From: Noviherbaspirillum suwonense
GTDB taxonomy: Bacteria; Pseudomonadota; Gammaproteobacteria; Burkholderiales; Burkholderiaceae_D
Direction: 5' to 3'
Length of the DNA stretch: 64,000 nucleotides
NCBI RefSeq assembly: GCF_900182955.1
Contig: NZ_FXUL01000006.1
Span: 62,001-126,000 of the forward strand
Each line of letters opens with the position of its first letter. Within the stretch, counting starts at the first letter, position 1. Positions 1 to 23,635 of the stretch are shown here, in pieces. The notes under the pieces were generated by a model. The model had not been told where the DNA came from and ran no database searches. It was given only the letters and a program-made list of their open reading frames with translations. The position numbers were made by a program, and so were the translations under genes.

Positions 1-1986
1 TCCACATGATACCAGCAGGTCGCGAATGTCTTCACCGTGCAGGCAGTCGTATTCGTTGTCGACGATCAGGATGTCGGGCACGCCCGCAAAGAGCTGCTGC
101 AAGCGATCGGTGGCGATATACATTTCGCCGGGCTTGGCGATATAGGACTTGCCGTCGCCGGTATCCACCACCATCACAAAGGTGGTATCGCGCAGGGCGG
201 AACGGAGCTTTTCCTTCTGCGCTGTTGAGTCGGTGCTGAAGGCAGCACGGATACGCTCGATGTCTGCCGCGTAGGCATCTTCGCTCACATCCACTTCTTC
301 CTGTTGGTACTTTGGCAGGATGTTCCAGATCACGTCATCCACCGGATCGGGTTCGGTGATGCCCAGCGAACCCAGGAACAAGCGCACCTCGGGTGTTGCG
401 CACACCGCGCGGCGCATTGTTCGGAAACTAGTGGCAATGGCGCCGGGCAGGAAAGCTTTGGCTTTTCCGTTATCGCGGGCGACGACGTGGGTACCATCTT
501 CAAGGCGGATGAGTGGAACAGTGTCGAGATGGCGACGCAGAGCCTTCTCCTGGCCACTTAGGAATTCGTACAACCGCAACACCCATTCATCGGATTGCGC
601 CTCAAGGAATGACTTAGTCAGGCTCGGCACTAGCTTCGTTGGTGTGATCTCGTCGATGTTAAGTTCGCGCATCAGGTACTGGCGAATCTCGGGCACCTTG
701 TCCTGAGTAATATCGCCAGACAGCCAAGCGGCGACCTTCGAACCAAACAGCGTCCCAACCTGCTCCGGACTGAACAGCTCGCGCAAGTCTTGTGTGCGTG
801 CTAGCTTCGCTTGATAAGCGGTGACGTGCCTGCCGTCAAAGGTCGGAAGTAGCATCTCCTCTTGAAATGCCTGCCGGACGGCATCGAACATCGGTGCGAA
901 CCGAGAATGTTGTTGGAACTTCTCACGGTCAAGCGGTAAGCAGCGCAGCGCCGAGACATCCAGCATGGCCTTGTCCCGCATCCAGCGCATCGCTTCAACT
1001 AGTAAGCTAGACGTTTCCTTGACCAGATGCTGGTTCCACGGCTCGCCGGGCGGGATGTTGTCGCGACTGGGCGTGGTGCGGTACGGTCCTTGCACGAGAA
1101 AGCCAAGGTGGCTCTCAACCACGGTCGGAAAGAACACCACCAGCGGCGACTTAGCCAGCGGCTGCACAGACCAGCGACCGGGCACGTCCTTTGCCGCCAC
1201 GACCAGCGAGAAGGCAATTTCCACCCGCCCGACCTTCTGCTGCTCAGCAGAAAACACGTCGCGGTGGAAAACCAGCCAGTTCTGATCGACTTCCGGCCGA
1301 TCATCCTCTTTGCCGATTACCGTGATGCGCTGGACATTAGGTCCGAGCGATTCGGGAGTATTGCGCAGGTAAAACCCAGACGCGCCGCCCTCGACGCTCC
1401 AATTGATTTCGTCAATGTGCCGCAGGAACAGCAGCGCGCTGGGGCCCAAGTGTCGGAACCCTGCCGTGATGTCCCGCGCTGCGGTATTGTCCTCCGGTTT
1501 CAGGGGGAGGATGATCTGCGTCTCTCCCGCCGCGCGCGCCGAGCGTTCCAACCGTTTAGGAAAGACGTAATTCTCAATGGCGAAGTCCTCGTCGCCAGAG
1601 TGAATTTCCGGAAGATCGGTGATGGTATAAACGGACTTGAAGCCGAGGCCGAAGCGGCCAATGGAGGATTCGTTCTTGGTGCTCTCGGCGATGTCACAGA
1701 CGCTTCGGACGTCGGCCTCGTCGAATGGCTTGCCGAAGTGAGAGAGCGTCAGGCGGGCCGGGCTTAGGTTGAACGCGACCTTGCGCGATCCGTGCCAGTC
1801 GCCGCGCTTACCAAGGGCGTCCTCAGCGTTTTGCAACAATTCAAAGATAAAGTGCGTGCGGTCGTCGTATAGCCCAGCGGCCAGCCGCCCAGACTTTTGA
1901 GCGCCCTTAGTGCCGTAGCTCTTATGGTTTTCCTCGAAAATTGCCTCGTAGTTGGATGCCACCACCGCTCCCTGTAAGTCAGGCAT
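1..1986 (-). CDS. Sacsin/HSP90-type ATPase domain protein (partial, C-terminus outside window)
   Basis: The minus strand is open from an ATG at 1986 to the window edge (662 residues, no stop). The N-terminus shows a GHKL/Bergerat ATP-binding fold of the sacsin type: FELLQNAEDA at residues 48-57 supplies the catalytic Glu and metal-binding Asn, HFGKPF near 83-88 replaces the usual DNG/HNG box, and GRFGLGFKSVY at 110-120 is the ATP-lid motif. GGAAGAG directly precedes the ATG. Such proteins in islands are often large and linked to restriction or helicase genes; their role is mostly unproven. It is divergent from the HTH gene at 2077, with only 90 bp between starts. The fold is well supported; a defence role is inferred from context. 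Confidence 0.8.
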   Translation of the reverse strand, partial: MPDLQGAVVASNYEAIFEENHKSYGTKGAQKSGRLAAGLYDDRTHFIFELLQNAEDALGKRGDWHGSRKVAFNLSPARLTLSHFGKPFDEADVRSVCDIAESTKNESSIGRFGLGFKSVYTITDLPEIHSGDEDFAIENYVFPKRLERSARAAGETQIILPLKPEDNTAARDITAGFRHLGPSALLFLRHIDEINWSVEGGASGFYLRNTPESLGPNVQRITVIGKEDDRPEVDQNWLVFHRDVFSAEQQKVGRVEIAFSLVVAAKDVPGRWSVQPLAKSPLVVFFPTVVESHLGFLVQGPYRTTPSRDNIPPGEPWNQHLVKETSSLLVEAMRWMRDKAMLDVSALRCLPLDREKFQQHSRFAPMFDAVRQAFQEEMLLPTFDGRHVTAYQAKLARTQDLRELFSPEQVGTLFGSKVAAWLSGDITQDKVPEIRQYLMRELNIDEITPTKLVPSLTKSFLEAQSDEWVLRLYEFLSGQEKALRRHLDTVPLIRLEDGTHVVARDNGKAKAFLPGAIATSFRTMRRAVCATPEVRLFLGSLGITEPDPVDDVIWNILPKYQQEEVDVSEDAYAADIERIRAAFSTDSTAQKEKLRSALRDTTFVMVVDTGDGKSYIAKPGEMYIATDRLQQLFAGVPDILIVDNEYDCLHGEDIRDLLVSCG

Positions 1987-2076
1987 CTCTTCCAATGCCA
2001 AGTTTGCACAAGTCTGCAATGTTATGACAAGATGTAACACTTAACCAAGCGCAACAACGATGACATAGGAAAGCGG

Positions 2077-2289
2077 ATGAGCGACCAGCCGGACGAAATC
2101 CTCACAATTGACGAGGTCGCCGCTTACCTAAAGGCAGGCAAGCGCACGGTTTATCGCCTTGCAGCGAGCGGAAAGCTCCCAGCGTTCAGGCTCGGAGGCA
2201 CATGGCGCTTCCGTCGCGGCGATTTGGATCAGTGGATTGGCGATCGCATAGGCAAGGCGACAGTGGATGACAAAGAGGGCGCGGAATGA
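2077..2289 (+). CDS. Small excisionase-type HTH DNA-binding protein
   Basis: A 70-residue protein made almost wholly of a MerR-like winged helix (HTH_17/excisionase family): LTIDEVAAYLKAGKRTVYRLA followed by LPAFRLGGTWRFRRGDLDQWI, the standard recognition helix plus wing. Such proteins bind DNA and act as excisionases, controllers or small operon regulators. Its stop overlaps the ATG of the helicase remnant at 2286 (ATGA), so the two were translationally coupled. It probably regulates the helicase and the divergent sacsin gene through the 90-bp shared control region. Family assignment is firm; the regulatory role is inference. Confidence 0.85.
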   Translation: MSDQPDEILTIDEVAAYLKAGKRTVYRLAASGKLPAFRLGGTWRFRRGDLDQWIGDRIGKATVDDKEGAE

Positions 2290-3195
2290 CAGCCAGCACT
2301 CCTGCTCTCCAGTCCAAGGCCAATTGCCAGCAACTCGAAGCCATCCTTGCCACGGACGGCCCGCTGCTTGTCATTGCCGGGCCGGGGTCGGGTAAGACCT
2401 TCACGCTGGTCGAGCGCATCGTCCATCTAATCACTCAGAAGGGGGGCGCCCCGGAGTCGCTTCTAGTCATCACATTCACCGACAAAGCCGCGCGTGGGCT
2501 GACCACGCGAATCTCCAATCTACTGGCCGAGCTAGGCATCCAGTTCAATCTGAACGAGATGTACCTTGGCACGTTCTACTCCATCTGCCTACGGCTGCTG
2601 GAGGACTACCCCGAGTTCACTCGGCTCAAGCGCAGCTTCACGCTGTTCGATCAGTTCGATCATTTCGATCAGTTCGACCAGCAGTACTTCCTGTACCAGC
2701 ACATCACGAACTTTCGCGAATTGCCCAACGCCCAGCGCGTCATAGGCGACGACCATATGGGCCGCTGGACGAAGTCGGAGAACCTGCTCAAGTGGCTCAA
2801 CAAGGTCGGCGAGGCGCTCGATGCAACTAAGCTCGCAGCGGCCTCCGAACTAGAAATCCGCGCCCTGGCCGTCTGCTTTGCCAAGCACCAGGAACTGCTG
2901 CACGAGCACAACTCGCTGGACTCCTCCGGCATCCAATACGAAGCCTTGCAACTGCCGGAAAAGCGCCCGGCGGTGCTGACGCACGCTGTGCACAGCTACT
3001 ATCCGGACTTCGTCTTCCAACGGGGGGAGCAGGACGGCAGCGTAAAGTACGTTGATCGTCGAAGTGAAGGCCAACAACCAGATCGAGGATGCCGTGAGGC
3101 AGGCCAAGAAGGGCTTCGCCCAACAGATCGCAGTGGCCAGGGGAATGGAATACCACATTCCCAAGTCATCAGATGCGGACAAGCGACTGCTGTAA
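2286..3195 (+). pseudogene. Broken UvrD/Rep-type helicase fused to a restriction-enzyme C-terminal remnant
   Basis: The first 220 or so residues are the N-terminal part of a UvrD-like SF1A helicase: Q-motif, Walker A GPGSGKT near residue 32-38, VITFTDKAA (motif Ia) and GTFYSICLRLL. The sequence stops being UvrD-like around LPEKRPAVL, where motif II (DEYQ) should follow. It jumps to YYPDFVF and then, one frame over from about 3049, to LIVEVKANNQIEDAVRQAKK ending at a TAA at 3193-3195. That tail looks like the PD-(D/E)XK end of type III restriction or helicase subunits. Read in its starting frame the ORF runs to 3215 with a nonsense tail. A deletion plus a frameshift therefore removed the helicase core; the product is very probably not functional. 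Confidence 0.8.
2652..2688 (+). repeat. In-frame 9-bp slippage repeat (FDQ units) in the helicase remnant
   Basis: The codons read FDQFDHFDQFDQQYF: the 9-base unit GATCAGTTC is iterated about four times with slight variation. It adds residues at a point where one FDQ unit would normally lead into the Q-Y-F helix. It looks like replication slippage and is consistent with relaxed selection on a dead gene. Confidence 0.6.
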
Positions 3196-3245
3196 GGACT
3201 CTCGGTTACTGTTGATTTCGTAATGTTAGGCACACGACAAATATA

Positions 3246-6200
3246 ATGACCAAAAAAAGAATTTCGAAAAGCACGCTTTCAATGTTCCTCCGCACGAAGT
3301 GCGACCGGGAGCTCTATTTGTCCCTGCACGAAGATTCGGAGCTTCAGACGCATGGAATGCCAGTTCCACTACAAGCTCGGCCTGGTATTGGAGTGCTGCA
3401 AACCGCAGGTAGAGATTTTGAGGATGAGCGAAATGATCAGTTGATTCGGTCCTTCGGCAGTCTGGTCATTTATCAGCTTGGTAAAGGAGGAGTGAACAAG
3501 CCAGTCAAAGCTCCACTCGCTTCCTTGCTTAGCAGGGTCACATCCCTGCCATCAATAATTTTGCAAGGGAAGTTCGAGCCTTCAGCTTTTCAGAATGCCG
3601 CAATGGCGAATATCGGGCTTCAGCCAGGGCAAGCTACTCTAGTGCCTCCAGTTGCAGGCCTAATTCCTGACATCATAGTAGTACGTCAGGCCACAGCGGA
3701 CGACGAAGAGGTAGGCCAGAACGGATGCCGGAAACCAATTGACTTGGCAACTGAAACGCGTCGTGCGTTGAGCATCATAGACGTGAAGCACACCAGCGAA
3801 GCAAATCCCAGCTACTCTGCCGAGGTTGCGCTTTACGCAATTTTTCTAGCTAATTGGATCGCCGATCAGGGGCTGCAGAACGACTATTTTGTTACTATCC
3901 GCAGCTACTTGTGGACCCGATTCAAGCAGGGTCAAGCTGCGCTCGATGCTTTAATGTCCAGTACTACTTCGGCAACACCGGACCAGTATTTGGACGCACT
4001 GATTTCCGATAGTGAGGACGCCAATCTTCGTTTCTATCTGCCCACTGTGTTGCATTTCTTCCGGGAAGATCTACCCCGTACCATTACCATTGGCGATGCT
4101 TCAGCCAATGGTTGGGAAAATCTCGAATGGCACGTCGATGGTCGCTGTAGCGCCTGCGACTGGCTCGGTCATGAAAAGTGGGCGAATTCGAAGGACAAGG
4201 TGCGAATTTCGGCACAGCCGACCCACTACTGTTACTCTGCCGCGAAGCTGACCGGGCACCTAAGTCAGATTGCGGGCATGACTCGTGGTGCAAGAAAAAC
4301 GCTGCAGATTCATGCTATTCAGAACACAGCGAGCGCAGCCGCAGCTCTCTCTGCACATCCTGCGTTCCAACAACACAGTCATCTTAAGAAAGAACGAAGC
4401 CGCATCCCCGCGCGGGCTACTGCACTGATTTCGTCAACGACCACAGTAGACAATTCGGCTGTGTTGGCAAGCTTGTCTCCTTGGCCACAGTTGCATGTCG
4501 CTATTACGGTTAACTTCGACCCCAGTGCAGGACTAATGACAGGCTTGTCCACATTTGGCAGGGCAACGGCTTATGTAAGTGGACAAACTCCGCGACAATT
4601 CCCTACTAAGTGTTTTGTCGTGGATCAGAAGAGTCTCGCAGATGAGTGGATCGCCCTTGAGGGGCTGCTGTCAACTCTGTCCGACATGGTTGACCAGTCC
4701 GAAGCATTCATTCGTTCAGCCGGGAAAACACCTTTAACTGCGCAAATCGCCTTCTGGGAAAAACGCCAATTTGAAGAGCTTTGCGCGGCGATGGGGCGGC
4801 ATTTGCCTAAGGTTTTGAGCCTCACCAACCGCAAGACTAAGGCACTGGCATGGCTCTTCCCGGCTGACGAACTCATCGAAAAACCTGATGGTGCGGTCAG
4901 TCCGTGCGTCGTTTTCATCGATGAAATTGTGCGCCGAGTCGTTTTCGCACCGACACCGCATGTCATCACGCTGCTCGATACTGCTGAGACTTACTATTCT
5001 GGATCGGGGCCGGTCCGCCAGGGAGATGCTTTCTACCGTGAATTCTTGACTAATGGGATTCCGCGGGAGCGAATCTATGAGATCTGGAGCAATGTGACCA
5101 CAATCAAGCGCGGCTCTGTTACTGTCCCACGAAATACTGTTATTCAGGAATTTGGTAATGCACTTGAAAAGCAGTGCCGAGCATTGAACAGTATCGTCGA
5201 AAGGCTGCGCGCGGATTTCAGGGGCCAACTCAAGGCTAACGCACCGAAACTGACTCTTTCGATTCCACAGGGCGCTCGGGATGTCGCGTTCGATAGCAAG
5301 CTCTGGGTTTGGTGGGAGGAGCTGCAGTATCACACCAGAAAGCTAGAATCCCACCAGCGACTGGCGCTCGACGCCGATGCACTGGAGGCGAACTACGAGG
5401 CAATTCGACTCACCAACGGCCAACCGACCGGATTGCCGAATGAGTACGTTTTTGACGTGTTGGCTGGATCAACCGAGGCAAAGCTTGATGATAACGAAGG
5501 CTATCTTGCCCTTGGCAAGGAGGGGCACCCTGGCCTTCCGCTGCAACGCGCACGAGACATAATCGCTACCAGCGCGCCCGCATATTCTGGATCAGATCAG
5601 ACGCTGGCCACGCCAATGTGGTCGGCACTTTCGGTAACGCTCGTATCGTTCGACCGTGGCAGGCGCAAAGCTGTGCTGAAGCTGTCCAATTGGCGCGAGT
5701 CTGCTTTCTTCCCGTACCTCCTTGCAAATTCGACTATCGATTTGATGAACGACATCTTCATTACCAAAGGGCAAGGTTCATTCAAATGGTACGAAACGGT
5801 GAAGGAGATTTTGAGTGCCGTTGGCAGCCCTTCAATTGCGGTCGCCGATAGCAATGCGGCAGTTGCAATGGGGGCTAGACCGCCACGGCCTGGTTTGGAC
5901 CCCGTGACTCCGCTCGCACGAGTCCTGTGGGAGGCTGACACGGTCCACGCCACTTCCGTAATTGCCCCAACCCAAGCCGCATCAGTTGCTGCTTACGCTA
6001 GGGCAAAGCACAACTTAAACAACAGCCAAACAGGTGCCGTCTTGCATGCGGCGGAAAAAGGGCTGACGATCATTTGGGGCCCACCTGGCACAGGGAAAAC
6101 CCAGACACTCGCAGGCTGTATTCACGGCCTGGTTCATGATGCTGTGCGCCGAAGCCAGCCACTAAAGTTCTTGGTGGCCGGCCCGACCTACAAAGCAGTG

Positions 6201-7493
6201 GAAGAGATCATTGGTCGCGTAGTGACCTCGTTGGACAATGACGTGACCTGTGCGGCCGAAATCTTCGTAGGGTACTCGTCTTCACAGACCCCGATGTCAT
6301 TCACGGCAACCAACTCCCACCTGCGTGTTGAGTCGTTCAATCTGCACCAGGGTAACCAAGAGACTCAAGATTGCCTTGCCAGCTTAGCGAATACCAACGT
6401 CGTCACAATTGTCGCCACATCAACGATGCAGTCCCATAAGCTCGCGGCGTGGACATACGGATGTTGTGTTGGGCCGATCTTCGATGTCGTCATCGTTGAC
6501 GAAAGTTCTCAAGTTCAGGTGACAACGGCCATTTCTCCATTAGCCACGCTGAAGGAGGACTCTCGCTTGATCATCGCCGGAGACCATCTCCAGATGCCGC
6601 CTATAATGGCGCTTGAACCACCTGTCGGAGCCGAATACTTAGTGAGCAGCATCCAAAAATACCTACTGTCCCGGCCATTCGCTGGCAAAGTCAATACATG
6701 CCCACTCGAAGAAAACTACCGCTCGGCGGAAGACATCGTAGCCTATGCGCGAACGATTGGGTATCGGGCAACACTGAAAGCTTCAAACCCGGCGACGGCA
6801 CTCCGTTTCCTAGCCTCGGCACCAACACCGACAACGGGCTTTCCGAGTTCGCTACCTTGGTCTCCTCTGTGGCCGCAAGCTTTGGATGCAGACAAGAAGA
6901 TATTGGCGTTACTACATGACGACGATCTTTCGTCGCAGAGCAATTCGTTTGAAGCAAAGATGGTCGCGGCACTGACTTGGTGCCTGAGGAATACCGTGAG
7001 TGCAGAACTCGATGGACGAGGCACTGCCACTCACATATCACCTACACCTGATCAGTTCTGGGGACAGTGCATCGGTATTGTCACTCCACACAGAGCACAG
7101 CGCGCGCTGGTGGTACGTGAGCTAAGGGCGCTTTTCCCTGCCGACCCACCCGATCTAATCGACTCTGCGGTTGATACTGTGGAAAAATTCCAAGGTGGTC
7201 AGCGGCACACCATCATCGTCACTTTCGGTGTTGGTGACGCGGACGTGATAATGGGTGAGGAAGCATTCCTCATGCAGCTCGAGCGCACCAACGTGGCGAT
7301 TTCACGCGCAATGGCCAAATGCCTAGTGATCATGCCGATGACGCTTGCTGGACACGTTCCTCATGACAAGAAGGCGTTAGAGACAGCGCACGCAATCAAA
7401 GACTATGTAGATGAATTCTGCAATCAGGAAATTGCGGATCGAATCATGTCTAGCACAACGTCAAAGCAAGCGAAGCTTCGTTATCATCAGTAG
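3246..7493 (+). CDS. Dna2/TM0106-type protein: Fe-S PD-(D/E)XK nuclease plus SF1 helicase
   Basis: A 1415-residue fusion. The N-terminal part has a RecB/Cas4-like nuclease signature: IIDVKHTSE (D179, K181) followed by an alanine/tyrosine-rich helix. It also has four cysteines placed as in Fe-S nucleases of the AddB/Dna2/Cas4 type: C19 in TKCDRELYL, then C301, C304 and C329. The C-terminal third is an SF1B (Upf1/Dna2-like) helicase: Walker A GPPGTGKTQ near 945, Walker B VIVDESSQ near 1084, GDHLQMPP, then VDTVEKFQGGQ and RTNVAISRA. The architecture fits TM0106-family RecB-like nuclease-helicases. It should unwind and degrade nucleic acid, probably against foreign DNA. No clear ribosome-binding site precedes the ATG. 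It is convergent with the methyltransferase, with 13 bp between stops. Domain calls are firm; a defence role is inferred from the island. Confidence 0.85.
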   Translation: MTKKRISKSTLSMFLRTKCDRELYLSLHEDSELQTHGMPVPLQARPGIGVLQTAGRDFEDERNDQLIRSFGSLVIYQLGKGGVNKPVKAPLASLLSRVTSLPSIILQGKFEPSAFQNAAMANIGLQPGQATLVPPVAGLIPDIIVVRQATADDEEVGQNGCRKPIDLATETRRALSIIDVKHTSEANPSYSAEVALYAIFLANWIADQGLQNDYFVTIRSYLWTRFKQGQAALDALMSSTTSATPDQYLDALISDSEDANLRFYLPTVLHFFREDLPRTITIGDASANGWENLEWHVDGRCSACDWLGHEKWANSKDKVRISAQPTHYCYSAAKLTGHLSQIAGMTRGARKTLQIHAIQNTASAAAALSAHPAFQQHSHLKKERSRIPARATALISSTTTVDNSAVLASLSPWPQLHVAITVNFDPSAGLMTGLSTFGRATAYVSGQTPRQFPTKCFVVDQKSLADEWIALEGLLSTLSDMVDQSEAFIRSAGKTPLTAQIAFWEKRQFEELCAAMGRHLPKVLSLTNRKTKALAWLFPADELIEKPDGAVSPCVVFIDEIVRRVVFAPTPHVITLLDTAETYYSGSGPVRQGDAFYREFLTNGIPRERIYEIWSNVTTIKRGSVTVPRNTVIQEFGNALEKQCRALNSIVERLRADFRGQLKANAPKLTLSIPQGARDVAFDSKLWVWWEELQYHTRKLESHQRLALDADALEANYEAIRLTNGQPTGLPNEYVFDVLAGSTEAKLDDNEGYLALGKEGHPGLPLQRARDIIATSAPAYSGSDQTLATPMWSALSVTLVSFDRGRRKAVLKLSNWRESAFFPYLLANSTIDLMNDIFITKGQGSFKWYETVKEILSAVGSPSIAVADSNAAVAMGARPPRPGLDPVTPLARVLWEADTVHATSVIAPTQAASVAAYARAKHNLNNSQTGAVLHAAEKGLTIIWGPPGTGKTQTLAGCIHGLVHDAVRRSQPLKFLVAGPTYKAVEEIIGRVVTSLDNDVTCAAEIFVGYSSSQTPMSFTATNSHLRVESFNLHQGNQETQDCLASLANTNVVTIVATSTMQSHKLAAWTYGCCVGPIFDVVIVDESSQVQVTTAISPLATLKEDSRLIIAGDHLQMPPIMALEPPVGAEYLVSSIQKYLLSRPFAGKVNTCPLEENYRSAEDIVAYARTIGYRATLKASNPATALRFLASAPTPTTGFPSSLPWSPLWPQALDADKKILALLHDDDLSSQSNSFEAKMVAALTWCLRNTVSAELDGRGTATHISPTPDQFWGQCIGIVTPHRAQRALVVRELRALFPADPPDLIDSAVDTVEKFQGGQRHTIIVTFGVGDADVIMGEEAFLMQLERTNVAISRAMAKCLVIMPMTLAGHVPHDKKALETAHAIKDYVDEFCNQEIADRIMSSTTSKQAKLRYHQ

Positions 7494-7506
7494 TACTTGT
7501 GTCGAG

Positions 7507-8652
7507 TTAAATGCGCTCAACGTGAAAATCAAACTCGACGGCGGCGGCAGAATCAGTTTTCATTTGATTCGCCTGCCGCTTTCCAGCATCGGCTGAATCG
7601 GCGGCTCGAACTGAAACCAAGCGCCAGTTGATTCCGGACTCCTCCAGCGAATTTCTGAAAATATCCTTCGCATTTACGGAGGCCGAAGGAATAATGCCGA
7701 AGCGGACATACATGTGCAGCGTATCAGAAAGGCTCTGCCCGACGTTTCTCCATACAGCACCTAGAGATTTGGCAAAGGTGTTTCGGCTGCCATGGTCAAG
7801 TTGTGGACCAGCCGAATAATCTACTTGACTAGGGCCACCAAGAAACCAGCTTCTCAGCCACTGGTCTTGAACATATGTACGCATCCCGTAGTAAGGCGGC
7901 GACGTAATTATGATCGATGGGGCTGAAGTGATGGCCTCAAACGATTTTGGCAATTGGGCATCACCATGCAACACTTGGGCTGTCGAACTAGGTGATTTCT
8001 GAGGCAAGCCAGTTAAACGTTCAATCTTGCGGCGAAGGACGCGCAAAACGTCGATTTTCAGCGGCTTGAGCCCTCTTTCTTTCCAAAAGCGAACGGCATA
8101 ATCTGGCTTTGATGCATAGGTTCGCGGCATCTGGTTTGAAAAGTACCCCGCGTTTACTATATTTTTCGGAAGTGGTCCGTGAAGACATCCAAGAATAGCC
8201 GCACGGAGAATGACGGATGCGTCGGTATCTTGATTTAGCAGCAAAAGAGATTCACGTAGAGCGCAAATATCTCGCAGTGTTCTCGGATGATAGGCCGCTC
8301 GAAAGAATGGCGTGTCCGGTATGTCGTTTGGCTTAGTATCAACGATCAAGCGTGACGCCAAGCTGATAGGTGCTTCAAAGTCGCACGCAGCCAGCTTGGC
8401 CTTTGCAATGGCGACAGCAACAGGGGAGGAGTCTATTCCCCAGGCACTCAATCCAAAATTGCGGGCGGCAAATAGAGTAGTGCCTCGACCGCAGAATGGA
8501 TCAAGAACAACAGGGTTGTCCTTTTTATGTTTCCGAAGGACCTTAGATGGGTACTCAAGTGGAAACATTGTGAAATAGGGACAAATTGCGTTCAGTGCGT
8601 TTTCTTTGCTGTATGCGAGCGCCACGTTCTTGTTTCTTGTGATGTTTGTCAT
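7507..8652 (-). CDS. DNA methyltransferase (SPPY-type, likely N4-cytosine or N6-adenine)
   Basis: A 381-residue AdoMet-dependent DNA methylase. Motif I is VVLDPFCGRGTT at residues 48-59, with GIDSSPVAV (motif II) after it. The catalytic motif IV is TSPPYYG at 250-256. The S-P-P-Y form is typical of N4-cytosine methyltransferases, and motif I before motif IV with about 190 residues between suggests the alpha-type order with an internal target-recognition region. No cognate endonuclease is obvious beside it. The nearest candidate is the convergent nuclease-helicase, so it is either an orphan or the protective half of an unusual pair. The C-terminus looks complete. Confidence 0.85.
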   Translation of the reverse strand: MTNITRNKNVALAYSKENALNAICPYFTMFPLEYPSKVLRKHKKDNPVVLDPFCGRGTTLFAARNFGLSAWGIDSSPVAVAIAKAKLAACDFEAPISLASRLIVDTKPNDIPDTPFFRAAYHPRTLRDICALRESLLLLNQDTDASVILRAAILGCLHGPLPKNIVNAGYFSNQMPRTYASKPDYAVRFWKERGLKPLKIDVLRVLRRKIERLTGLPQKSPSSTAQVLHGDAQLPKSFEAITSAPSIIITSPPYYGMRTYVQDQWLRSWFLGGPSQVDYSAGPQLDHGSRNTFAKSLGAVWRNVGQSLSDTLHMYVRFGIIPSASVNAKDIFRNSLEESGINWRLVSVRAADSADAGKRQANQMKTDSAAAVEFDFHVERI

Positions 8653-9261: not shown

Positions 9262-9488
9262 ACCTTTGCCTATGCACGAGTTTCTTCCTCAGTCCAGACG
9301 ACAGACAACTAGCTGGGCGAAATTCACCCAGCGCTTCGCGGACAAGCTGTACCGTATCATTATTGAAAGCATATTTGGACACATCGCTACTGTTAAGCGT
9401 CTCAGTTTTACTAGGCTGCAGAACAAATTGGAGCAAGATGATGTGCTCATTATCACAGAGTTAAACGGTCTAGGGCAGGACCATGCCA
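9262..9488 (+). pseudogene. Remnant of a serine recombinase (resolvase/invertase)
   Basis: Frame 1 reads TFAYARVSSSVQTTDN and then hits a stop at 9310-9312; YARVSS carries the catalytic serine of the resolvase N-terminus. The similarity resumes in another frame from about 9341: YRIIIESIFGHIATVKR then FTRLQNKLEQDDVLIITELNGLGQD. That matches the resolvase pattern in which E.SG..A..RP, L..KL..GDVLIV and LDRLGR occur in order. A stop, a frameshift and several altered key residues (LDRLGR has become LNGLGQ) show it is dead. The C-terminal HTH half is absent. Confidence 0.75.
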
Positions 9489-9509
9489 CAGGCTGCTAGG
9501 AGGCCCACT

Positions 9510-10142
9510 ATGTTTAACAATCAGAAGCAACTTCAAGTGCTAGTCGAGCAAGCTCGCGGCGAATTACTTAGAATCGGTAAGTCGTTGGTCGATGACGGTT
9601 GCATTGAACTATGGAATCTGGTCAACGAAATCAGTGAGATCCGGAGAAGCTCCCTAATCGAGGAATTTGGAACTGCTTTCGCTGGATTTTGCTCGCAGAT
9701 CGGTAGGCTCGCAGGCGCAATGTCCACCATGGGCAAGATTGGAGGAGCAGCCTGCAACGCTGCCGAAGAAAATGGAGGTGTAGCTGATATTAAATTCTCT
9801 CATTTTTCCGTAATAATGGATGCCGGCACTGAATCCTTTGAGCGTACACAGCAACTATGTTGTCTGCTCGAAGCATGCGTGCAAGAATTCAGCCGGCTGG
9901 GTGCCGAACTACAGTGGCTCTGTGAAAAAGACATTCAGTTTGTAGTGTGCGATGCGCATGTCCTAAACGATCATCCCGAGCTTGTCCAAGCCGATGCTAT
10001 CAGGGCACGCCTTGCAGCATCGACAGATCACCTAGAAACGCTTTCGAATGGATGGTGGCTTCTTGCCGAAGAGGCGAAGAAAAAAGAGGACGCCTATAAA
10101 ACAGCACTAGCTGCTTATTCTCCCCCACACAAAATCCACTGA
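9510..10142 (+). CDS. Hypothetical protein, helical, unknown function
   Basis: A 210-residue protein. The start at 9510 (MFNNQKQ) is preferred over an upstream ATG at 9483 because GGAGG precedes it at good spacing. The sequence is rich in Leu, Glu and Ala and is probably mostly alpha-helical, with a cysteine-containing stretch LCCLLEACVQEF in the middle. No signal peptide, membrane segment or recognised motif is seen. It lies between the dead resolvase and the IS fragment, and the stop at 10140-10142 sits about 20 bp from where the IS similarity ends. I do not recognise the family. Confidence 0.55.
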   Translation: MFNNQKQLQVLVEQARGELLRIGKSLVDDGCIELWNLVNEISEIRRSSLIEEFGTAFAGFCSQIGRLAGAMSTMGKIGGAACNAAEENGGVADIKFSHFSVIMDAGTESFERTQQLCCLLEACVQEFSRLGAELQWLCEKDIQFVVCDAHVLNDHPELVQADAIRARLAASTDHLETLSNGWWLLAEEAKKKEDAYKTALAAYSPPHKIH

Positions 10143-11214: not shown

Positions 11215-14200
11215 TTGACAACAATTGATTTTACGAGGATTCGCAGTACTCCAAAGAGCCGAAACGACTGCTTCGAAATGCTGGCAGTTCACCTGTTTCA
11301 TAACACTTACTGCCCGCCCGCCAATTCAACCTTTGTTAGTCTACGTGGCGATGGAGGTGACGGGGGAGTCGAGGCCTACTTTCGCTTGCCGGACGGGGCT
11401 ATAGTAGGAGTCCAGGCAAAGTATTTCTTCCAACTAGGGATTTCTGAGCTCCGCCAAATTGCCGATTCGCTTGAAACAGCTCTAACAAACCATCCGAGGC
11501 TATTGGAGTATTGGGTGTACATTCCCTTTGACCTGACCGGACGAGTTGCTGCGGGAACGAGGGGCCTGAGTCAAGCAGAACGCTATGAAGAGTGGAAGCA
11601 ACAGGTTGAGAGTTTCGCAGCTGGCAGAAACTCTAAGCTTACCGTGACGCTCTGTACTGCAACGGTTATTCGCAGGCAGGTGCTCGCCTGCGATCCGAAC
11701 GGAGGAATGCGTAGGTACTGGTTTGATGACTCAGTGCTAACGAACACACAGATTCAACGCTGTTTAGACGAGGCAGTAGCCTTTGCGGGCCCTAGGTACA
11801 CGGCGGCGCTCGACGTTGTCACTAGCGCTCATATAGTGCTGGACTTCTTCGGCGGAGTTGGCGACTTCCAAGCTTGGCGAGACGAGTCGCTTTCTTCAGT
11901 CATAGCTGAGCTTCGTTCGCTTATGGGATGGGGTAACAAGGCGCTCGACATCCTTGGCGATCTTGATGCCACCACTGCTCGTAATTTGATGCAACAAGTC
12001 ATTGCAGCATGTAAAGGGATGACAGACCTGTCTTTCGTCGCATCCGGTTCTATCGAAGTGAGGCAGATGTTGACAAGCGCTTTACCCCTGCTACACAAAG
12101 CTCGCGACGCTCAAGAGCAGGCCTTCTACGACAAGCATGGCCTAGAACAAGACACGCCGGGATTTCGCCAATTCCAAGCCGAGTACATGTGCGCATTTCC
12201 TGCAGCGGAGATGGATGCAGCGCGTACGTGGGTGGAGCAGGCTCAATTACTTCAGGATGCGCTTTCATCACCAGAAATAGGTGCGGCTACAATGCGCTCT
12301 TTGCTACTGGTTGGACCCGCCGGTATCGGGAAGACCCATTCGATCGTAAGTGCCGCGCTCCGCCGACTCGACCAGGGCGGGAACTCACTAGTCGTCTTCG
12401 GAGACGACTTCGGCAGAGAAGAACCTTGGGAGGTAGTACGCAGCAAACTCGGATTTGGCGCCGATGTCTCGCGTGCGACCCTCTTTGAGTGCCTGCAAGC
12501 GTCCGCTGAGAATACGGGCTTGCCATTCGTCATCTACATTGATGCGCTCAATGAGAGTCCCCGCGATGCTCGATGGAAAAGCAAGTTGCCGGAGTTGCTG
12601 GCACAGTGTGCACCATACCAGGGCATCAAAATCTGCGTTTCTACCCGCGATACGTACCGAAACTTGGTCGTCGACGCGCGGTTTCCGGGCTATGCCTTCG
12701 AACATGCTGGCTTTCAAGGTCAAGAATTTGAAGCAATTCAAGCGTTTGCAACGTACTACGGCTTGGACACTGAAATCACGCCACTATTTTCGCCTGAACT
12801 TGGCAACCCACTGTTCCTACACTTGGCCTGTAAGACGTTGCGGGACGAAGGGCGAACTTCGCTGGATGTCTCACTTCCGGGATTTGTTGCGCTTTTGGAG
12901 GGGCATCTTAAACATTGTGATGACCTCATCAGACAAAGACTGGTCTACTCGAACCCTCGAAACATTGTGCGAGCTGCAATGCTACGGCTTTCTGAGGTCC
13001 TGACGGACAACGTTCCGCAGGACCGCACTTGGGAGGTCTGCACGGTAGAGCTGCAGAGGATTGTCGGTAAGGAAGTTACCGCTGAAGCCCTGCTTCAAGA
13101 ACTCGAACATGAAGGACTTGTAATTCTGTCTACGGATGAACGCGATACATGGTTCATTCGATTGGGGTATCAGCGTTATGGCGACATCCTTCGGGCCACC
13201 AGTGTCGTCGAGGGACTGATGGGGCCGAGAGGGGTAGATGTTCCTGCGCTTGCATCGAAGCTCACAGGGCTGACGCCTGATGATGAGAGCCTGTTGGAAG
13301 CATTGGCAGCTGTTCTGCCTGAAAAGGCATGTTTAGAAATTACCGACAAAGCGCTCGGAATTGATGCGACGCTTGCACATCGGCTCTTTATTCAAGCTCT
13401 TGCCTGGCGCTCACGGGACAGCATCAACTACGACATTGACGACCATGTGCTCAGTGCATTGCACACGCCAGGGCTGTGGCAAGAGGTCTACGACGCATTT
13501 TTCCGCCTCAGCCTAGTTCCATATCACCGATTAAATGCCTCAAACTGGCTGAGCCCGTTCTTGCGGCGTTCGTCGATGGTTAACCGCGACGCGTATCTCT
13601 CGGTAGCTGCATTCAAATCGTTTGATGCCAAGGGAGCGGTTTGGTCTCTTATCAATGCAGCTTTACTCGCGGAGATTCGGCGCTGGCCGGTAGAAAGCAG
13701 GGAATTGGCAGTTGTAGCACTGGCTTGGCTAACAACGTGTTCCGACCGACGAGTTCGAGATTTGTCCACAAAAGGGCTCGCGCGGTTAGTGGCTTACCAG
13801 CCAAGCCTTGGAAGGAAACTGACCGACGAGTTTCAAGGATGCGATGACGACTATGTGCTTGAAAGCATCGCCCTTGCAATCTACAGCGCGTGCCTCCTAG
13901 AGCGTAGCGTGGTGGACGAGTTCGTTCCCGCACTTGAAGGGTTGTTGAGTGCTACGTTTGATTCCCCGAATGTCCTCATACGGGACTCTGTTCGTCTGCT
14001 GGGGCAACTTGTGCAGCGCAACAAACCTCGTCCTTCGTTGCAGAAGAAGCTGGATGCCTATCCTTCGAAGGTCGCTACATGCAAATCATGGCCGACGCTG
14101 CCCGACGCGAAGCCGCTACTAGATTTGGAAGGCGTGCCGTCGAACATGAAACTATGGGGTTCACACATGTTGCCCGACTTCTGGCGATACCAGGTCGAAC

Positions 14201-15366
14201 CGAAGATTAGAGACTTTGACCTAGATAGTGCAGGTATTGGTCAAGCTAACGTAGCCTGCTGGTTGATGGTAGAGGTTTTGCGGCTTGGCTACCCAGGATA
14301 CGAGCAATGCGCCCTCAAGACTGACCGTGGCATTGTAAGAGAATTTGGGAATGGACGCGGTCGCAAAGGATTCGCGGACCGTCTAGGAAAGAAGTACTAC
14401 TGGATACTTCTCCATCGCCTTCTTGGTCTACTTGCGGACACCGTACCACCGAGGAGGTCCTACTCGGGCGGGAAGGCCGGCTCTGCACATCTCTGGTCAC
14501 TCAGTGTGCGTAAGTCCGACGTCACCGATGTTAGGGATATCACTCCACCACGGGAATATCCAGATGAACTTGTCCAAGGGCCTCGGTACCCCTTCCCCGA
14601 CCAATCAGGGGACATTAAGCAGTGGGTAAGGACGGATGATTTTACCCCTCACGAAGAATGCATCGTTCGAACTTCAAGTAGTGGAGTGCAGTGGATAGCG
14701 CTTTCTCTGAGCGCCAAGGATAGCAATAGTTCTCCAGGGGATGATTCATGGACCAAGCCTTATTGCAGCGTAGACCTGTTCTATACAAGTGTTTTTGTCG
14801 AAGGTAATGTGCCGGCATTTGGTGCTCGTAGCAAAGCAAGAGACGTATTCGAAAACCAAGGGGCACGTTGCTATCAAGGTTTTCTAGCCGAATATCCAGA
14901 CGGCCTCGTGTTTAACCAGCTAGCAGAGGAGGGTGAGTTCTCCAGAGGGCCCAAAGGGATGGACTACTCGGAAGTCGCCCTTTTGCGCGGCGGAGAGTGG
15001 GAGTATGACTTTTCCTATACTAAGCCTGAGCGGCAGGAGCATCTTCACGTCCCTTGCCAAGATTTGGTGAAGGTACTAAAGCTTTCATGGGATAGACAGC
15101 GAGGGTGGATCGACACTAGCGGTGAACTCTTGGCCTTTCATTCGTATGCGAATCGACGGAGTGCTCTGTTCATTCGTCGCGACGCTCTTAACACCTATTT
15201 GTCAATCACCAAGCGCAAATTGGTGTACCGGCGCTTTGCCAATCGGGGCTTTTCTGCAAATGGCGCATCAGATAGCTCCCAAATTGATATCCTTACTTGG
15301 CTGTCGTACGAGCCGTCAAAGGCGCCCAACGTGCTAAGCGAAATCAGGCGCCCATTCGGCTGCTAA
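11215..15366 (+). CDS. Avs-like STAND NTPase with N-terminal nuclease-like domain
   Basis: A 1383-residue protein starting at TTG 11215 behind AGGGAAAAG. The N-terminus has a restriction-nuclease-like pattern, LRGDGGDGGVEAYF (D49, E53) followed by VGVQAKYF (Q67, K69), which resembles the E/D...Q-x-K core of PD-(D/E)XK enzymes. The centre is a STAND/NACHT-type ATPase: Walker A GPAGIGKT at 367-374, Walker B FVIYIDALNES with D443, and the sensor-like CVSTRD near 475-480. The remaining 800 or so residues are an alpha-rich sensor-type region with a distinct C-terminal part. Avs proteins detect conserved phage proteins through such regions and then activate the effector. Size and layout fit that group, but I cannot assign a known Avs type. 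It may be single-gene immunity. Confidence 0.7.
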   Translation: MTTIDFTRIRSTPKSRNDCFEMLAVHLFHNTYCPPANSTFVSLRGDGGDGGVEAYFRLPDGAIVGVQAKYFFQLGISELRQIADSLETALTNHPRLLEYWVYIPFDLTGRVAAGTRGLSQAERYEEWKQQVESFAAGRNSKLTVTLCTATVIRRQVLACDPNGGMRRYWFDDSVLTNTQIQRCLDEAVAFAGPRYTAALDVVTSAHIVLDFFGGVGDFQAWRDESLSSVIAELRSLMGWGNKALDILGDLDATTARNLMQQVIAACKGMTDLSFVASGSIEVRQMLTSALPLLHKARDAQEQAFYDKHGLEQDTPGFRQFQAEYMCAFPAAEMDAARTWVEQAQLLQDALSSPEIGAATMRSLLLVGPAGIGKTHSIVSAALRRLDQGGNSLVVFGDDFGREEPWEVVRSKLGFGADVSRATLFECLQASAENTGLPFVIYIDALNESPRDARWKSKLPELLAQCAPYQGIKICVSTRDTYRNLVVDARFPGYAFEHAGFQGQEFEAIQAFATYYGLDTEITPLFSPELGNPLFLHLACKTLRDEGRTSLDVSLPGFVALLEGHLKHCDDLIRQRLVYSNPRNIVRAAMLRLSEVLTDNVPQDRTWEVCTVELQRIVGKEVTAEALLQELEHEGLVILSTDERDTWFIRLGYQRYGDILRATSVVEGLMGPRGVDVPALASKLTGLTPDDESLLEALAAVLPEKACLEITDKALGIDATLAHRLFIQALAWRSRDSINYDIDDHVLSALHTPGLWQEVYDAFFRLSLVPYHRLNASNWLSPFLRRSSMVNRDAYLSVAAFKSFDAKGAVWSLINAALLAEIRRWPVESRELAVVALAWLTTCSDRRVRDLSTKGLARLVAYQPSLGRKLTDEFQGCDDDYVLESIALAIYSACLLERSVVDEFVPALEGLLSATFDSPNVLIRDSVRLLGQLVQRNKPRPSLQKKLDAYPSKVATCKSWPTLPDAKPLLDLEGVPSNMKLWGSHMLPDFWRYQVEPKIRDFDLDSAGIGQANVACWLMVEVLRLGYPGYEQCALKTDRGIVREFGNGRGRKGFADRLGKKYYWILLHRLLGLLADTVPPRRSYSGGKAGSAHLWSLSVRKSDVTDVRDITPPREYPDELVQGPRYPFPDQSGDIKQWVRTDDFTPHEECIVRTSSSGVQWIALSLSAKDSNSSPGDDSWTKPYCSVDLFYTSVFVEGNVPAFGARSKARDVFENQGARCYQGFLAEYPDGLVFNQLAEEGEFSRGPKGMDYSEVALLRGGEWEYDFSYTKPERQEHLHVPCQDLVKVLKLSWDRQRGWIDTSGELLAFHSYANRRSALFIRRDALNTYLSITKRKLVYRRFANRGFSANGASDSSQIDILTWLSYEPSKAPNVLSEIRRPFGC

Positions 15367-17313: not shown

Positions 17314-19020
17314 ATGCTTAAACCTCACCATACAGGCGGTCCGCTAAAGTTGTGGTCACATTTACTACTGGGCACAATTGCGTCTATCGTTGCGGCCGTG
17401 ATGATTGTGCATGGAATTCGGAATTTGGTTTCCATATTCATTCATGCGATAAGCGGAGAAATCAACAATGGCGGCCCACCGATTTATATCCTTGTCCTAG
17501 GACTGTTGTCTCCAGTAATTATATGGTACGGCTCCAAGATCAAAACACTGTTGTCATTCGTAATAAGGTATTTGGAAACTGTAGCGCTGGGTCTGGCGGC
17601 GTTCTTCATCGGGTTTTTCGAACGAAATGCGCGCTTTGAGGGAAATGTTGTGTACTGGATTGTCCGCGCTGTTTCTTTCGCCCTTATTATTTGGGCGGGT
17701 AAGTTGGCATATTTCAGCCTCAAGCAGGAAATGAATAAAGACTCATTGCAATGGGCATCGTCTTTCTTCATCACGTTAACAATATATTTAACATTTTCAC
17801 TAACAAGGCTTGTCGCGGGAAGATCCGATGATTGGAAGTCCTTGGCCGAGCGTGTGCAATTACGATTGTTCAGTCAAGAAAAAATCGAACTTGACGGCTT
17901 CACTAAGATACCTCTGATTCATCTGTCCGATCTTCATGTAACGTGTAGTAACACGGCGCCTCTCGCGGAAAATCCCCGGATCGGGGTGCCGGATGCGACG
18001 CTCAGCGCGCTGGCTGAGTCCATTAGTGCCCTGAACGCAATGCCGGTTATTGTCAGCGGTGACGCGACTGATACGGGTGACGCCACGGAATGGGAAAGGT
18101 TCAAGCGCTATTTCGGTCCCTTCAAAGACAGGATGGTCGTTGCCCCAGGCAATCACGATTTGAACATTGTTGGATACGGCAAAGGTAGTCTCTTGACAGT
18201 CACCGACCTGCTTTATTATGAAGGCAGGATAAACAGACTTCGCGCTTATTTATGCGCAGCCAACGACATTATGGGGAACCGTGTACGTACCCTGCGAAGT
18301 GATGTCAAAGGGAGGCCTAAGGCGCTTTGTTCACTCCAAGTGGCGCTGGACGACATCAAGGATGAGAGAGGCTCCCGGCAGTTTGAGGAACTGAATGCTC
18401 TGTTTCCGTTGGTCGTCAGGGTTCCATCGCCACACGCTGTCCTGTACGCCATCGTTTGGAATACGACACGTACATCTTCGCTTCCAACGTTAAATTCGCT
18501 CGGTAAGATTGACTCCGGACAGATGGAACGCCTATCGGGCATTGCAGAATTGTTGCAAAAGGAGACTGCTGAGCCGCTAGCGCTCATCCACGTGCTACAC
18601 CATAAGGTCGGCATGCCTGTTGAGTTAGAGTATCACTTCGGCACCCTGACGAAGTGGGAGCACAGGGTGCAGTTCGCGAGCATGACTATGCAGAACGCTT
18701 CGTCACTGTTGCGAACGATTGAGAGCCTAGGAGCAGACACGGTCATTCTTCATGGCCACCATCATACGCGGTTCGCGGCGCATGTGATGACAAGGTCGGA
18801 GCCTATGATCGATGTGATTTCGGCGCCTTCCTCCACTCTGCATTGTGAGGGGCATGTTCAAGGTGAATCATGCGTGCAAACCCCAGGATTCGATGTCGTT
18901 AGTGTGGGTGTCAAGCACAGAAATGCTCGGGTGGTATGTAATCCTCAATGGAACGCCAGTGTGTCAGCGCCTAGCCATACCGTCTTGACGAATCTGCAGA
19001 GAGATGAAGAGAATGTTTGA
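17314..19020 (+). CDS. Membrane-anchored calcineurin-like metallophosphoesterase
   Basis: A 568-residue protein. The first 165 residues hold about five hydrophobic helices (roughly 13-35, 52-72, 75-100, 112-135, 146-165). From residue 200 on comes a complete metallophosphoesterase domain: HLSDLH (D206, H208), SGDATD (D250), GNHD (N280-D282), LHVLHHK and HGHHH (480-484), the five metal-binding blocks in order. The active site is expected on the cytoplasmic side, acting on a phosphodiester, possibly a nucleotide or lipid. AT-rich DNA and a weak ribosome-binding site precede the ATG. Its place in an island full of nucleases suggests a membrane-located defence effector, but housekeeping or cell-envelope roles are possible. 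Confidence 0.85.
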   Translation: MLKPHHTGGPLKLWSHLLLGTIASIVAAVMIVHGIRNLVSIFIHAISGEINNGGPPIYILVLGLLSPVIIWYGSKIKTLLSFVIRYLETVALGLAAFFIGFFERNARFEGNVVYWIVRAVSFALIIWAGKLAYFSLKQEMNKDSLQWASSFFITLTIYLTFSLTRLVAGRSDDWKSLAERVQLRLFSQEKIELDGFTKIPLIHLSDLHVTCSNTAPLAENPRIGVPDATLSALAESISALNAMPVIVSGDATDTGDATEWERFKRYFGPFKDRMVVAPGNHDLNIVGYGKGSLLTVTDLLYYEGRINRLRAYLCAANDIMGNRVRTLRSDVKGRPKALCSLQVALDDIKDERGSRQFEELNALFPLVVRVPSPHAVLYAIVWNTTRTSSLPTLNSLGKIDSGQMERLSGIAELLQKETAEPLALIHVLHHKVGMPVELEYHFGTLTKWEHRVQFASMTMQNASSLLRTIESLGADTVILHGHHHTRFAAHVMTRSEPMIDVISAPSSTLHCEGHVQGESCVQTPGFDVVSVGVKHRNARVVCNPQWNASVSAPSHTVLTNLQRDEENV

Positions 19021-22124: not shown

Positions 22125-23426
22125 TTAAACAGCCGCTAACAGCCGCAATCCATCTGGTGCTTTAAGGAAATTGACCTTAGCTTGCTCTAAAATCCATGCT
22201 TCAATCTTTTCATGGTGTAAGCGCAGCAGGTCGAGCGGTCGGATCGTGTAATGCTTCTCGGCCGTCGCGCTCGGCTTATGCCCCATGATTTGCGCCACCA
22301 CGCCTGCAGGTATGTCCAGCCATTCAGTTAGCGATTTGAATGAACGACGCAATCCATGTAGCGTCAGGCCCTCAATGCCGGCAACCTTGCAGACTCCGGT
22401 TAGCTGATAATTCGGACTGGTTAGGTGGCTGCCTTTCGCACTGGAGAACACCCATTCATTACGGCGGGGCAGGGCAGCTATCACGCTTGCCATGTATGGC
22501 GTAAGTGGAATCTCTCTTGTGCCCTCCACTTTGTCGCGGATGGTCAGTCCTTTCCATTTGGTGTTCACGTCCTCCCACCGAATTTCAAGCACCTCGCCTG
22601 GTCTCGCGCCAGTCAACAAGATAGTTTGCAGACATGCGGCTACTACAGGATTGTTTAGCTTATTTACCGCATCAAACCATGCGGCCAGCTGCGTACGCTG
22701 CAAAACATCGGTTTTCGTTCGCGCCTTCCCAAGTGCTTCACGACTCTTTTTCGTCTTGGCTGGATTCGCCGCCGGGAGGATCGAGGCATATTCTTTCTGC
22801 TCAGCGCACCAGGCTAAAAATACCTTCAGTAGCCGCCAAGCCAGACGTGCAGCAGTTGGGCGGGTCTCGGCCTCCTTCGCCGCCCATTCTTCCACTGTGT
22901 CCGCATTCAGATCGCAAAGCTTTATGCTCATCAGGGAGTATAGCGGTCCTGCTATCGTCACGCCGCGCCCACGGGTGCCACGCTTACAGAGTACGCCGCC
23001 AGCCTTGGCTTTGGCAATATGGTCTAGGTAATGGCGTTCGCCCCATTTGCTTTTTCTGGCCTTAAGGTAGGCAGCCCATGCGTCTCCGACTGTCAGCGCT
23101 TGAGAACAGATACGTGATTCTTCGGCCTCTGCCTTTGCGCGCAGTGACGCTCGTTCACTTCTTGGGTCAATGCCTTGATCGACGAGCACTTTGTATTTCG
23201 TCGCTTCGGTTTGAGCCTTACTAACGGTCCAAGTGCGCGCATCCCCAATCGTAACGCGGATTGTCTTGCTGTAAAGACGAGCTTCGAAGATGTATGACTT
23301 GGCACCAGCGGCAGTCACGCGGAGTCCCAGGCCCGGTGTCTTGGCATCCCAAAAAATGAACTGCTGTTTTCCTGGCTCGCACTGAAAACCAGTCACCCTA
23401 TCCGCTGTGAAATTAACTTTAGCCAT
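22125..23426 (-). CDS. Tyrosine integrase of the P4/Arm-binding family
   Basis: A 433-residue site-specific recombinase. The N-terminus (FWDAKTPGLGLRVTAAGAKSYIFEARLYSKTIRVTIGDARTWTVSKA) is the Arm DNA-binding domain of the DUF4102 type. The catalytic residues are all present: R275 in LTGARPGEVLEIRW, H357-x-x-R360 in HGLRRSF, H383 in IMGHKPSA and Y393 in KHYTIRP. It should insert the element at the tRNA 3' end 160 bp to the right. It is transcribed leftward, into the element. Confidence 0.95.
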   Translation of the reverse strand: MAKVNFTADRVTGFQCEPGKQQFIFWDAKTPGLGLRVTAAGAKSYIFEARLYSKTIRVTIGDARTWTVSKAQTEATKYKVLVDQGIDPRSERASLRAKAEAEESRICSQALTVGDAWAAYLKARKSKWGERHYLDHIAKAKAGGVLCKRGTRGRGVTIAGPLYSLMSIKLCDLNADTVEEWAAKEAETRPTAARLAWRLLKVFLAWCAEQKEYASILPAANPAKTKKSREALGKARTKTDVLQRTQLAAWFDAVNKLNNPVVAACLQTILLTGARPGEVLEIRWEDVNTKWKGLTIRDKVEGTREIPLTPYMASVIAALPRRNEWVFSSAKGSHLTSPNYQLTGVCKVAGIEGLTLHGLRRSFKSLTEWLDIPAGVVAQIMGHKPSATAEKHYTIRPLDLLRLHHEKIEAWILEQAKVNFLKAPDGLRLLAAV

Positions 23427-23585: not shown

Positions 23586-23635
23586 CCGGACTCATAATCC
23601 GTTGGTGCCGTGTTCGACTCACGGGAGGCCCACCA
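23586..23635 (+). repeat. 3' tRNA fragment (CAU anticodon arm to CCA): probable island attachment site
   Basis: An anticodon arm (CGGA-CTCATAA-TCCG, CAT at 23593-23595), variable loop, T-arm (CCGTG-TTCGACT-CACGG), acceptor strand GAGGCCC, discriminator A and CCA at 23633-23635 are all present. The matching 5' acceptor strand and D-arm are not found upstream, so this is not a full tRNA. Integration by a tyrosine recombinase at a tRNA 3' end leaves exactly this kind of duplicate. The intact elongator tRNA-Met or tRNA-Ile2 gene should lie beyond the left edge of the window. Confidence 0.8.

Follow-up and report, generated by a model that had tools for sequence, protein, structure and literature searches.

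We analysed a 64,000-nt stretch of the genome of Noviherbaspirillum suwonense (contig NZ_FXUL01000006.1, positions 62,001 to 126,000; called the window below), in which the gene of a nuclease-helicase, here named NucHel, faces the gene of a DNA amino-methyltransferase (hereafter the methylase) with an SPPY motif (Table 1). Both open reading frames (ORFs) start with ATG and are open over the coordinates given in a preliminary description of this DNA, which had rightly placed the gene of a 1415-residue protein tail to tail with that of a DNA methylase, here of 381 amino acids (aa), with only 13 bp between their stop codons. The reading that we consider the most likely, and reasonably probable, is that the two genes constitute a mobile, two-gene system resembling restriction-modification (RM).

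The preliminary description had set a check in advance, namely whether the two genes are neighbours in related islands. In the first searches, all nine full-length, unbroken relatives of NucHel (L002-L008, L009 and L010) had a convergent methylase, the stops being 11-13 bp apart or overlapping by 4 bp. NucHel identity is 83-87% in L002-L008, whose carriers we take to be gamma-, beta- and alphaproteobacterial genera, and ~40% in the plasmids L009 and L010. Altogether, a DNA methylase accompanies NucHel in 26 of 26 records, a set that excludes a 27th, frameshifted copy (L011), includes the contig-cut L048 and G220, and counts near-duplicates separately (judging by ORF lengths, L047 likely duplicates L005, and L054 duplicates L050). 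In 23 records the neighbour belongs to the same methylase family as that of the window. Twenty-one of these are directly convergent, among them G564, G220 (with the gene split over two contig ends) and nine of the 12 IMG/VR contigs with NucHel; one lies on the same strand with a 10-bp overlap (L052, IMG/VR); and one is convergent beyond NurA and HerA (G074, where NucHel-NurA-HerA face the methylase). The remaining three records have a DNA methylase of another kind alongside: a PF01555 methylase 2 bp upstream of NucHel (L055, IMG/VR), a DUF1156-like methylase overlapping the NucHel end (L056, IMG/VR), and a second DUF1156-like methylase, 35% identical to that of L056, with a 4-bp overlap (G671). 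In G671 (L079 2-3731), an 884-aa nuclease ORF overlaps a helicase ORF of at least 366 aa that is cut by the contig end; this layout may represent a split gene or a frameshift, and the arrangement in the Dpd system is likewise split.

Among plasmids, 32 records matched NucHel and three covered at least 80% of it; the others, mostly helicase parts, were not counted. Five further genomes gave short helicase matches only, and H37 (Mesorhizobium, 31%) also stayed outside the counts. A tree of 23 N-terminal parts, including two from Dpd, placed the 18 rows with a family methylase in one group (96/94), and the three NucHel proteins with other methylases fell outside it on long, poorly placed branches.

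The two proteins are co-inherited. Pairwise identities of NucHel and of the methylase were correlated with r = 0.83 over 17 pairs and r = 0.97 over the 16 pairs without L051, and none of 2000 label shuffles reached so high a value; label shuffling leaves shared history possible as the cause of the correlation, and the carriers are distant taxa. In the outlying record L051 (198-5694), a partner has been exchanged: relative to L049, identity is 92% for the methylase and only 40% for NucHel. A NucHel that does not need a closely matched methylase agrees with the conserved middle region of the methylase, and comparison of the sequences thus suggests that the family methylases share a target motif. 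We also considered L051 as a NucHel chimera that might reveal a specificity domain; its sliding identity to the NucHel of the window ranged from 19 to 65% with no high-identity island, so the methylase swap exposes no recognition domain.

We next take the evidence from the methylase side. NucHel is rare, being found in four of 399 genomes of the order (E <= 1e-10) and in two of 398 genomes of the phylum, our own included. The methylase occurs in 10 of the 399 order genomes at E <= 1e-148 (14 at E <= 1e-30), and in all 10 of those with the family methylase, NucHel and/or NurA-HerA are found alongside or in the same island. The effector is NucHel in G564, and both NucHel and NurA-HerA in G074 and in our own genome (G000), where NurA-HerA lie ~9 kb away in the same island. 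NurA-HerA are directly beside the methylase in G066, G526, G694, G498 and G081, and past a 297-aa ORF in G067; in G513, HerA runs up to the contig edge. HerA and the methylase overlap by 4 bp in G526, G498 and G081. In the phylum sample, the methylase (E <= 1e-20) was found in our own genome, G066, G220 and, as remote forms, G170 and G283, and NucHel in our own genome and G220. Not counted as family were the remote methylases of G170, G283, G563, G626 and G741, the second methylase of G081 and a 99-aa contig-edge fragment of G604.

Seventeen viral contigs carry the methylase. Ten of them have NucHel, one has NurA-HerA (L069) and one has a C-terminal piece of HerA, recognised by eye (L065); two have a GmrSD-like gene and a further gene (L066 and L070), and two are cut by contig ends. 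According to our scans, the two genes that follow the methylase in L066 (4102-7628) encode GmrSD_N and RiboL-PSP HEPN proteins, and L070 (4794-8350) looks alike by eye. Additionally, NurA, HerA and the methylase form compact operons in five records, with gaps of -25 to 11 bp (Table 1), which are a probable three-gene restriction-like system of their own. A search for NurA at E <= 0.001 gave no match in the genomes of the NucHel carriers L003, L005-L008, G220, G564 and G671 or in the plasmid records L009 and L010, so NurA-HerA are optional for NucHel; in the L004 genome, the contig with NucHel also carries NurA, ~10.5 kb upstream of it.

Three types of methylase (family, PF01555 and DUF1156-like) thus occur beside NucHel, and more than one effector beside the methylase. 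This two-sided exchange of partners points to RM logic rather than chance adjacency. It also bears on the idea of independent defence cargo, in which two separate functions occupy the same hotspots and their adjacency reflects shared history only. We consider this unlikely: the pair does occur on plasmids or in prophage-like surroundings with further defence genes nearby, and with similar copies across distant taxa, but the two genes stay adjacent down to ~29% NucHel identity even where the upstream neighbours of NucHel differ, and the three methylase types take differing positions and orientations. For the RM-like reading, the defence genes nearby count as support: BREX in L008, type III RM in L006, GmrSD in L002 and Avs2 in the window.

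The preliminary description had called NucHel Dna2/TM0106-like with an apparent four-cysteine iron-sulphur nuclease, which proved right in kind. By sequence, its helicase part matches the solved structures of SMUBP-2 (2.5e-25), UPF1 and DNA2 (5eaw, 6.7e-19), and its Pfam matches near the C-terminus are AAA_11 (2.3e-22) and AAA_12 (2.3e-16). No model of Pfam, PADLOC, NCBIfam or PHROGs placed its best stretch within the first ~865 residues. The TM0106 part of the name stands for a relative rather than for NucHel itself, since the TM0106 model TIGR03491 is hit by the NucHel relative in Dpd (2.1e-12; 46.8 bits against a cut-off of 97.45) and not by NucHel.

In 16 N-terminal parts that are 26-88% identical to that of the window, residues C19, C301, C304, C329, D179-x-K181, E193 and Y197 are invariant; D142 is invariant in an 11-row alignment and conserved in at least 90% of these parts. 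This pattern is that of a predicted iron-sulphur ('iron-staple') RecB-type nuclease, and the four cysteines and the nuclease core are retained as NucHel diverges to ~29% identity. A structure model covering residues 1-885 (mean pLDDT 81.5) was compared with solved structures. Foldseek returned nothing at E <= 0.001 (best 0.053), and the alignments that follow come from a DALI-like second look only: residues 1-343 align with Cas4 (7mi5_A; Z 11.1, rmsd 3.6, 199 residues), and residues ~412-706 align with exonuclease-type (DnaQ/RNase H) domains of family B polymerases (up to Z 13.6, rmsd 3.1, 179 residues) and with RNase T (Z 11.4). A profile search of the PDB with residues 1-885 gave a single hit, at E 0.5, which is not meaningful. 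In the middle domain, D425 is invariant in the 16-part alignment and no acidic residue stands two positions on (10 rows), so this domain, with its predicted RNase H fold, would not cut, and its probable role is to hold or check DNA.

Strong purifying selection acts on NucHel, which is thus kept by selection: the ratio of nonsynonymous to synonymous substitution (dN/dS) is 0.025-0.05 in comparisons with five homologues, in which dS approaches saturation; synonymous sites were saturated in a sixth NucHel comparison and in all six comparisons of the methylase. DNA2- and Cas4-type domains would also suit a helper of DNA repair or replication like eukaryotic DNA2, with a methylase that only regulates or marks strands. 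That role appears very unlikely for a gene whose distribution is as patchy as described above and which resides on mobile elements.

The methylase matches Pfam N6_N4_Mtase (1.4e-12). Motifs X and I (DPFCGRGTT) come first and motif IV (SPPY) follows ~200 residues on, and the two halves match the solved structure 2zie in swapped order. Residues T250-G256 (TSPPYYG), D51, P52, G55-G57 and T59 are invariant in 20 of 20 methylases, and F53, C54 and T58 are conserved in at least 90% of them. An SPPY motif is commonly taken to indicate cytosine-N4 methylation. With the structure model of the methylase, Foldseek found class I methyltransferases at low TM-scores, and the second look placed Trm11/TrmN-type RNA methyltransferases on top (Z 17).

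In the system that we propose, the methylase would act on resident DNA, where it would methylate cytosine at N4 or adenine at N6, both exocyclic amines, within its motif and so probably mark the cell's own DNA. NucHel, an ATP-driven superfamily 1 (SF1) helicase apparently fused to an iron-sulphur PD-(D/E)XK nuclease, would engage DNA without the mark and, to judge from its domains, probably unwind it, cutting the strands along the way. Gating of NucHel by the methyl mark, the direction of its translocation, degradation of incoming DNA and phage resistance are what we infer for this system. In the island of the window, the NurA-HerA nuclease-pump may be a second effector served by this methylase.

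Several observations weigh against this proposal. A single operon promoter cannot drive two convergent genes, in contrast to the arrangement of many RM systems, and the exchange in L051 implies that the two proteins need not co-evolve closely. No sequence-recognition domain was identified in NucHel. The frameshifted NucHel of L011 has no methylase that we could find in its 24-kb locus. On the methylase side, the remote methylases of G170 and G283 (30-32% identity) stand alone, the viral contig L072 has a methylase with no recognised nuclease, and plasmid L074 has a family methylase with neither NucHel nor a recognised effector. In G066, the methylase and NurA-HerA are present and no NucHel was found in the genome. 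A methylase retained in this way is also what would be expected of a protective partner if NucHel were a toxic nuclease that the methylase or the methyl mark restrains, as in addiction or abortive infection, and that fires when an infecting phage disturbs methylation, and growth arrest of this kind would fit a mobile pair borne on plasmids and phages. We regard it as improbable: no sensor or regulatory element was identified, and ordinary RM explains the same observations equally well.

In our own genome, the set lies on an island of ~28.6 kb that also carries Avs2 and is bounded by tRNA-Met and, next to the integrase, by a 49-bp copy of the 3' end of this tRNA. Outside the left edge of the window lie the remainder of the 1123-aa HATPase gene, NurA and HerA; the HATPase is counted as an island gene and not as a member of the pair. 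The segment upstream of NucHel is the relic of a UvrD-Mod-Res block: UvrD with an intact block of type III Mod and Res stands upstream of NucHel in L005, L006 and G564, and by comparison with these the block has been deleted here. In L002 and L004, GmrSD (scanned in L002) and type I RM-like genes (seen by eye) take that place, and among the scanned upstream genes of L002, L006 and L008, PglZ and BrxL of BREX were found in L008 only. Past the methylase, L003 has an endolysin, which ORFs of L002, L004, L005 and L008 resemble, and L008 also has a tail-fibre-like ORF; these settings are prophage-like.

Further along the window, the phosphoesterase weakly matches DS9_1, a phosphoesterase with anti-phage function (1.2e-11, under the curated cut-off), and a 219-aa ORF between the methylase and Avs2 (9483-10142) had no family match in scans of Pfam, PADLOC and NCBIfam. 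Excisionase-type helix-turn-helix proteins with a similar motif, EVAAYLKxGKRTVYRLAA, are encoded beside UvrD in the window (2077-2289) and beside NurA in L097 (44-391).

Table 1. Features of the NucHel-methylase locus, its island and related operons. Plain coordinates refer to the window; G000 denotes our own genome.
Feature	Location	Strand	Remarks
NucHel: predicted iron-sulphur RecB/Cas4-type nuclease, RNase H-fold middle domain, SF1 helicase	3246..7493	+	1415 aa
NucHel, predicted nuclease domain, residues 1-343	3246..4274	+	Invariant residues and Cas4 7mi5_A alignment
NucHel, predicted middle domain, residues 412-706, RNase H/DnaQ-exonuclease-like fold	4479..5363	+	Structure-model alignments
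NucHel, SF1 helicase, ~residues 916-1389	5991..7412	+	Walker A GPPGTGKT at 945-952
Intergenic stretch between convergent stops	7494..7506	.	13 bp
DNA amino-methyltransferase, motif order X-I...IV	7507..8652	-	381 aa; DPFCGRGTT at residues 51-59, SPPY at 251-254
Sacsin-like HATPase (TmtA-like), 5' part	1..2040	-	1123 aa; leaves window at left edge
UvrD fragment fused to frameshifted type III Res remains	2286..3215	+	
Avs2-like protein	11215-15366		1383 aa; PADLOC Avs2 7.5e-177
Calcineurin-like phosphoesterase	17314-19020		568 aa
Island tyrosine recombinase/integrase	22125..23426	-	
Exact copy of tRNA-Met 3' end; probable attachment site, island boundary	23587..23635	+	49 bp
tRNA-Met, other island boundary	G000:C6:56986-57064		
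HerA	about G000:C6:57258-59372		Left of window
NurA	G000:C6:59387-60526		Left of window
Compact NurA-HerA-methylase operons	L096 4799-9341; L097 304-4742; L098 4691-9089; L100 4655-9038; L069 3636-8091		

A methylase gene stably linked to a nuclease gene is a general feature of RM systems, and the pair shows it from both sides (all 26 NucHel records; 10 of 10 methylase-side genomes). The preliminary description had seen in it the logic of RM without a classical type, and this view is supported: the methylase adjacency holds, and the pair falls outside type III RM, BREX and Dpd. Like type III RM, it combines an ATP-dependent partner with an amino-methylase. Whereas the type III Res is a superfamily 2 (SF2) helicase (ResIII), NucHel combines an SF1 helicase with an apparent iron-sulphur nuclease, and its methylase is shorter and of another type. 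We rejected membership of type III RM, as the best Pfam matches of NucHel are the SF1 models AAA_11 and AAA_12, and ResIII reaches just 14.2 bits against a cut-off of 22.5. BREX was likewise rejected: the 18 PADLOC families listed for NucHel include no BREX model; for the methylase, the best 25 of 50 families were considered. The best PADLOC matches are DpdJ, for the helicase part of NucHel, and a generic type II methylase. Our scans with PADLOC 2023, NCBIfam June 2026, Pfam and PHROGs brought up no named system that contains both proteins.

The Dpd system, which uses a 7-deazaguanine mark, contains relatives of both parts of NucHel. On the Skermanella plasmid L012, a 771-aa protein encoded upstream of DpdJ is related to NucHel 3-766 (hhalign probability 99.5, E 1.6e-22, 663 columns), and DpdJ residues 41-478 match the NucHel helicase at 918-1389 (1.3e-39). 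NucHel differs from Dpd in being one fused protein instead of two, in having no YprA-like SF2 helicase part and in its methylase in place of 7-deazaguanine. Membership of Dpd was rejected because the match of NucHel to the DpdJ model, which has 2112 residues, is confined to residues 41-478; DpdA had no match among the scanned proteins of the window, and no genome-wide search for DpdA was made. The gene upstream of DpdJ (L012 9995-12310) appears to encode a TM0106-like iron-sulphur nuclease and had no PADLOC hit. A relative of the same core in a system with another mark would be in keeping with a type IV-like function, in which modified DNA is the target of NucHel and the role of the methylase is to block the other mark or compete with it; we consider this highly improbable, as direct pairing with a methylase in every NucHel record is simpler under self-protection.

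Taking the RM-like reading further, we propose tentatively, and with somewhat more doubt than confidence, a modular RM class in which one methylase family would mark the cell's own DNA on behalf of interchangeable ATP-driven nuclease machines (the DNA2-like NucHel, NurA-HerA and perhaps GmrSD). The NucHel core would be an ancestor or sibling of the Dpd restriction core, and the modules would also be mixed with other methylases or, in Dpd, with 7-deazaguanine. The pair links methyl-marked systems to the Dpd system via a common nuclease-helicase core. HerA-NurA complexes enter the comparison because NurA and HerA of the relatives form operons with the same methylase family and our own genome carries both sets; the NurA-HerA-methylase operons thus emerge as probable relatives in logic.

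The best precedent for the pair is Bad of Geobacillus stearothermophilus, a DNA2-like helicase-nuclease. Bad has an iron-sulphur cluster, 5'-3' helicase activity and single-stranded DNA endonuclease activity, adjoins a DNA methylase in all Geobacilli inspected by its authors, and is proposed by them as a novel restriction enzyme (PMC7430649). The neighbouring methylase is there characterised as type III M-like, with the target GCCAT and, as cited in the same source, N6-adenine methylation; the central region of Bad is said to be absent from eukaryotic DNA2 (PMC7430649). Bad and NucHel are alike in a four-cysteine RecB-family nuclease, a central region, an SF1B helicase and a neighbouring methylase. 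The N-terminal nuclease with four spaced cysteines is predicted in NucHel from the 16 of 16 invariant residues and the Cas4 alignment, and the C-terminal SF1B helicase from AAA_11/AAA_12 and its SMUBP-2, UPF1 and DNA2 relatives. They differ in the methylase, which next to NucHel is a 381-aa protein of another kind and mostly convergent, and next to Bad is type III M-like. The titles and abstract openings that we searched, with most subscription papers outside this sample, contain no description of such a pair beyond the Bad case. The pair described here provides a second, broader genomic basis for the suggestion that bacterial DNA2-like enzymes are restriction enzymes (PMC7430649), and with just two genes it is compact enough to be cloned as a unit.

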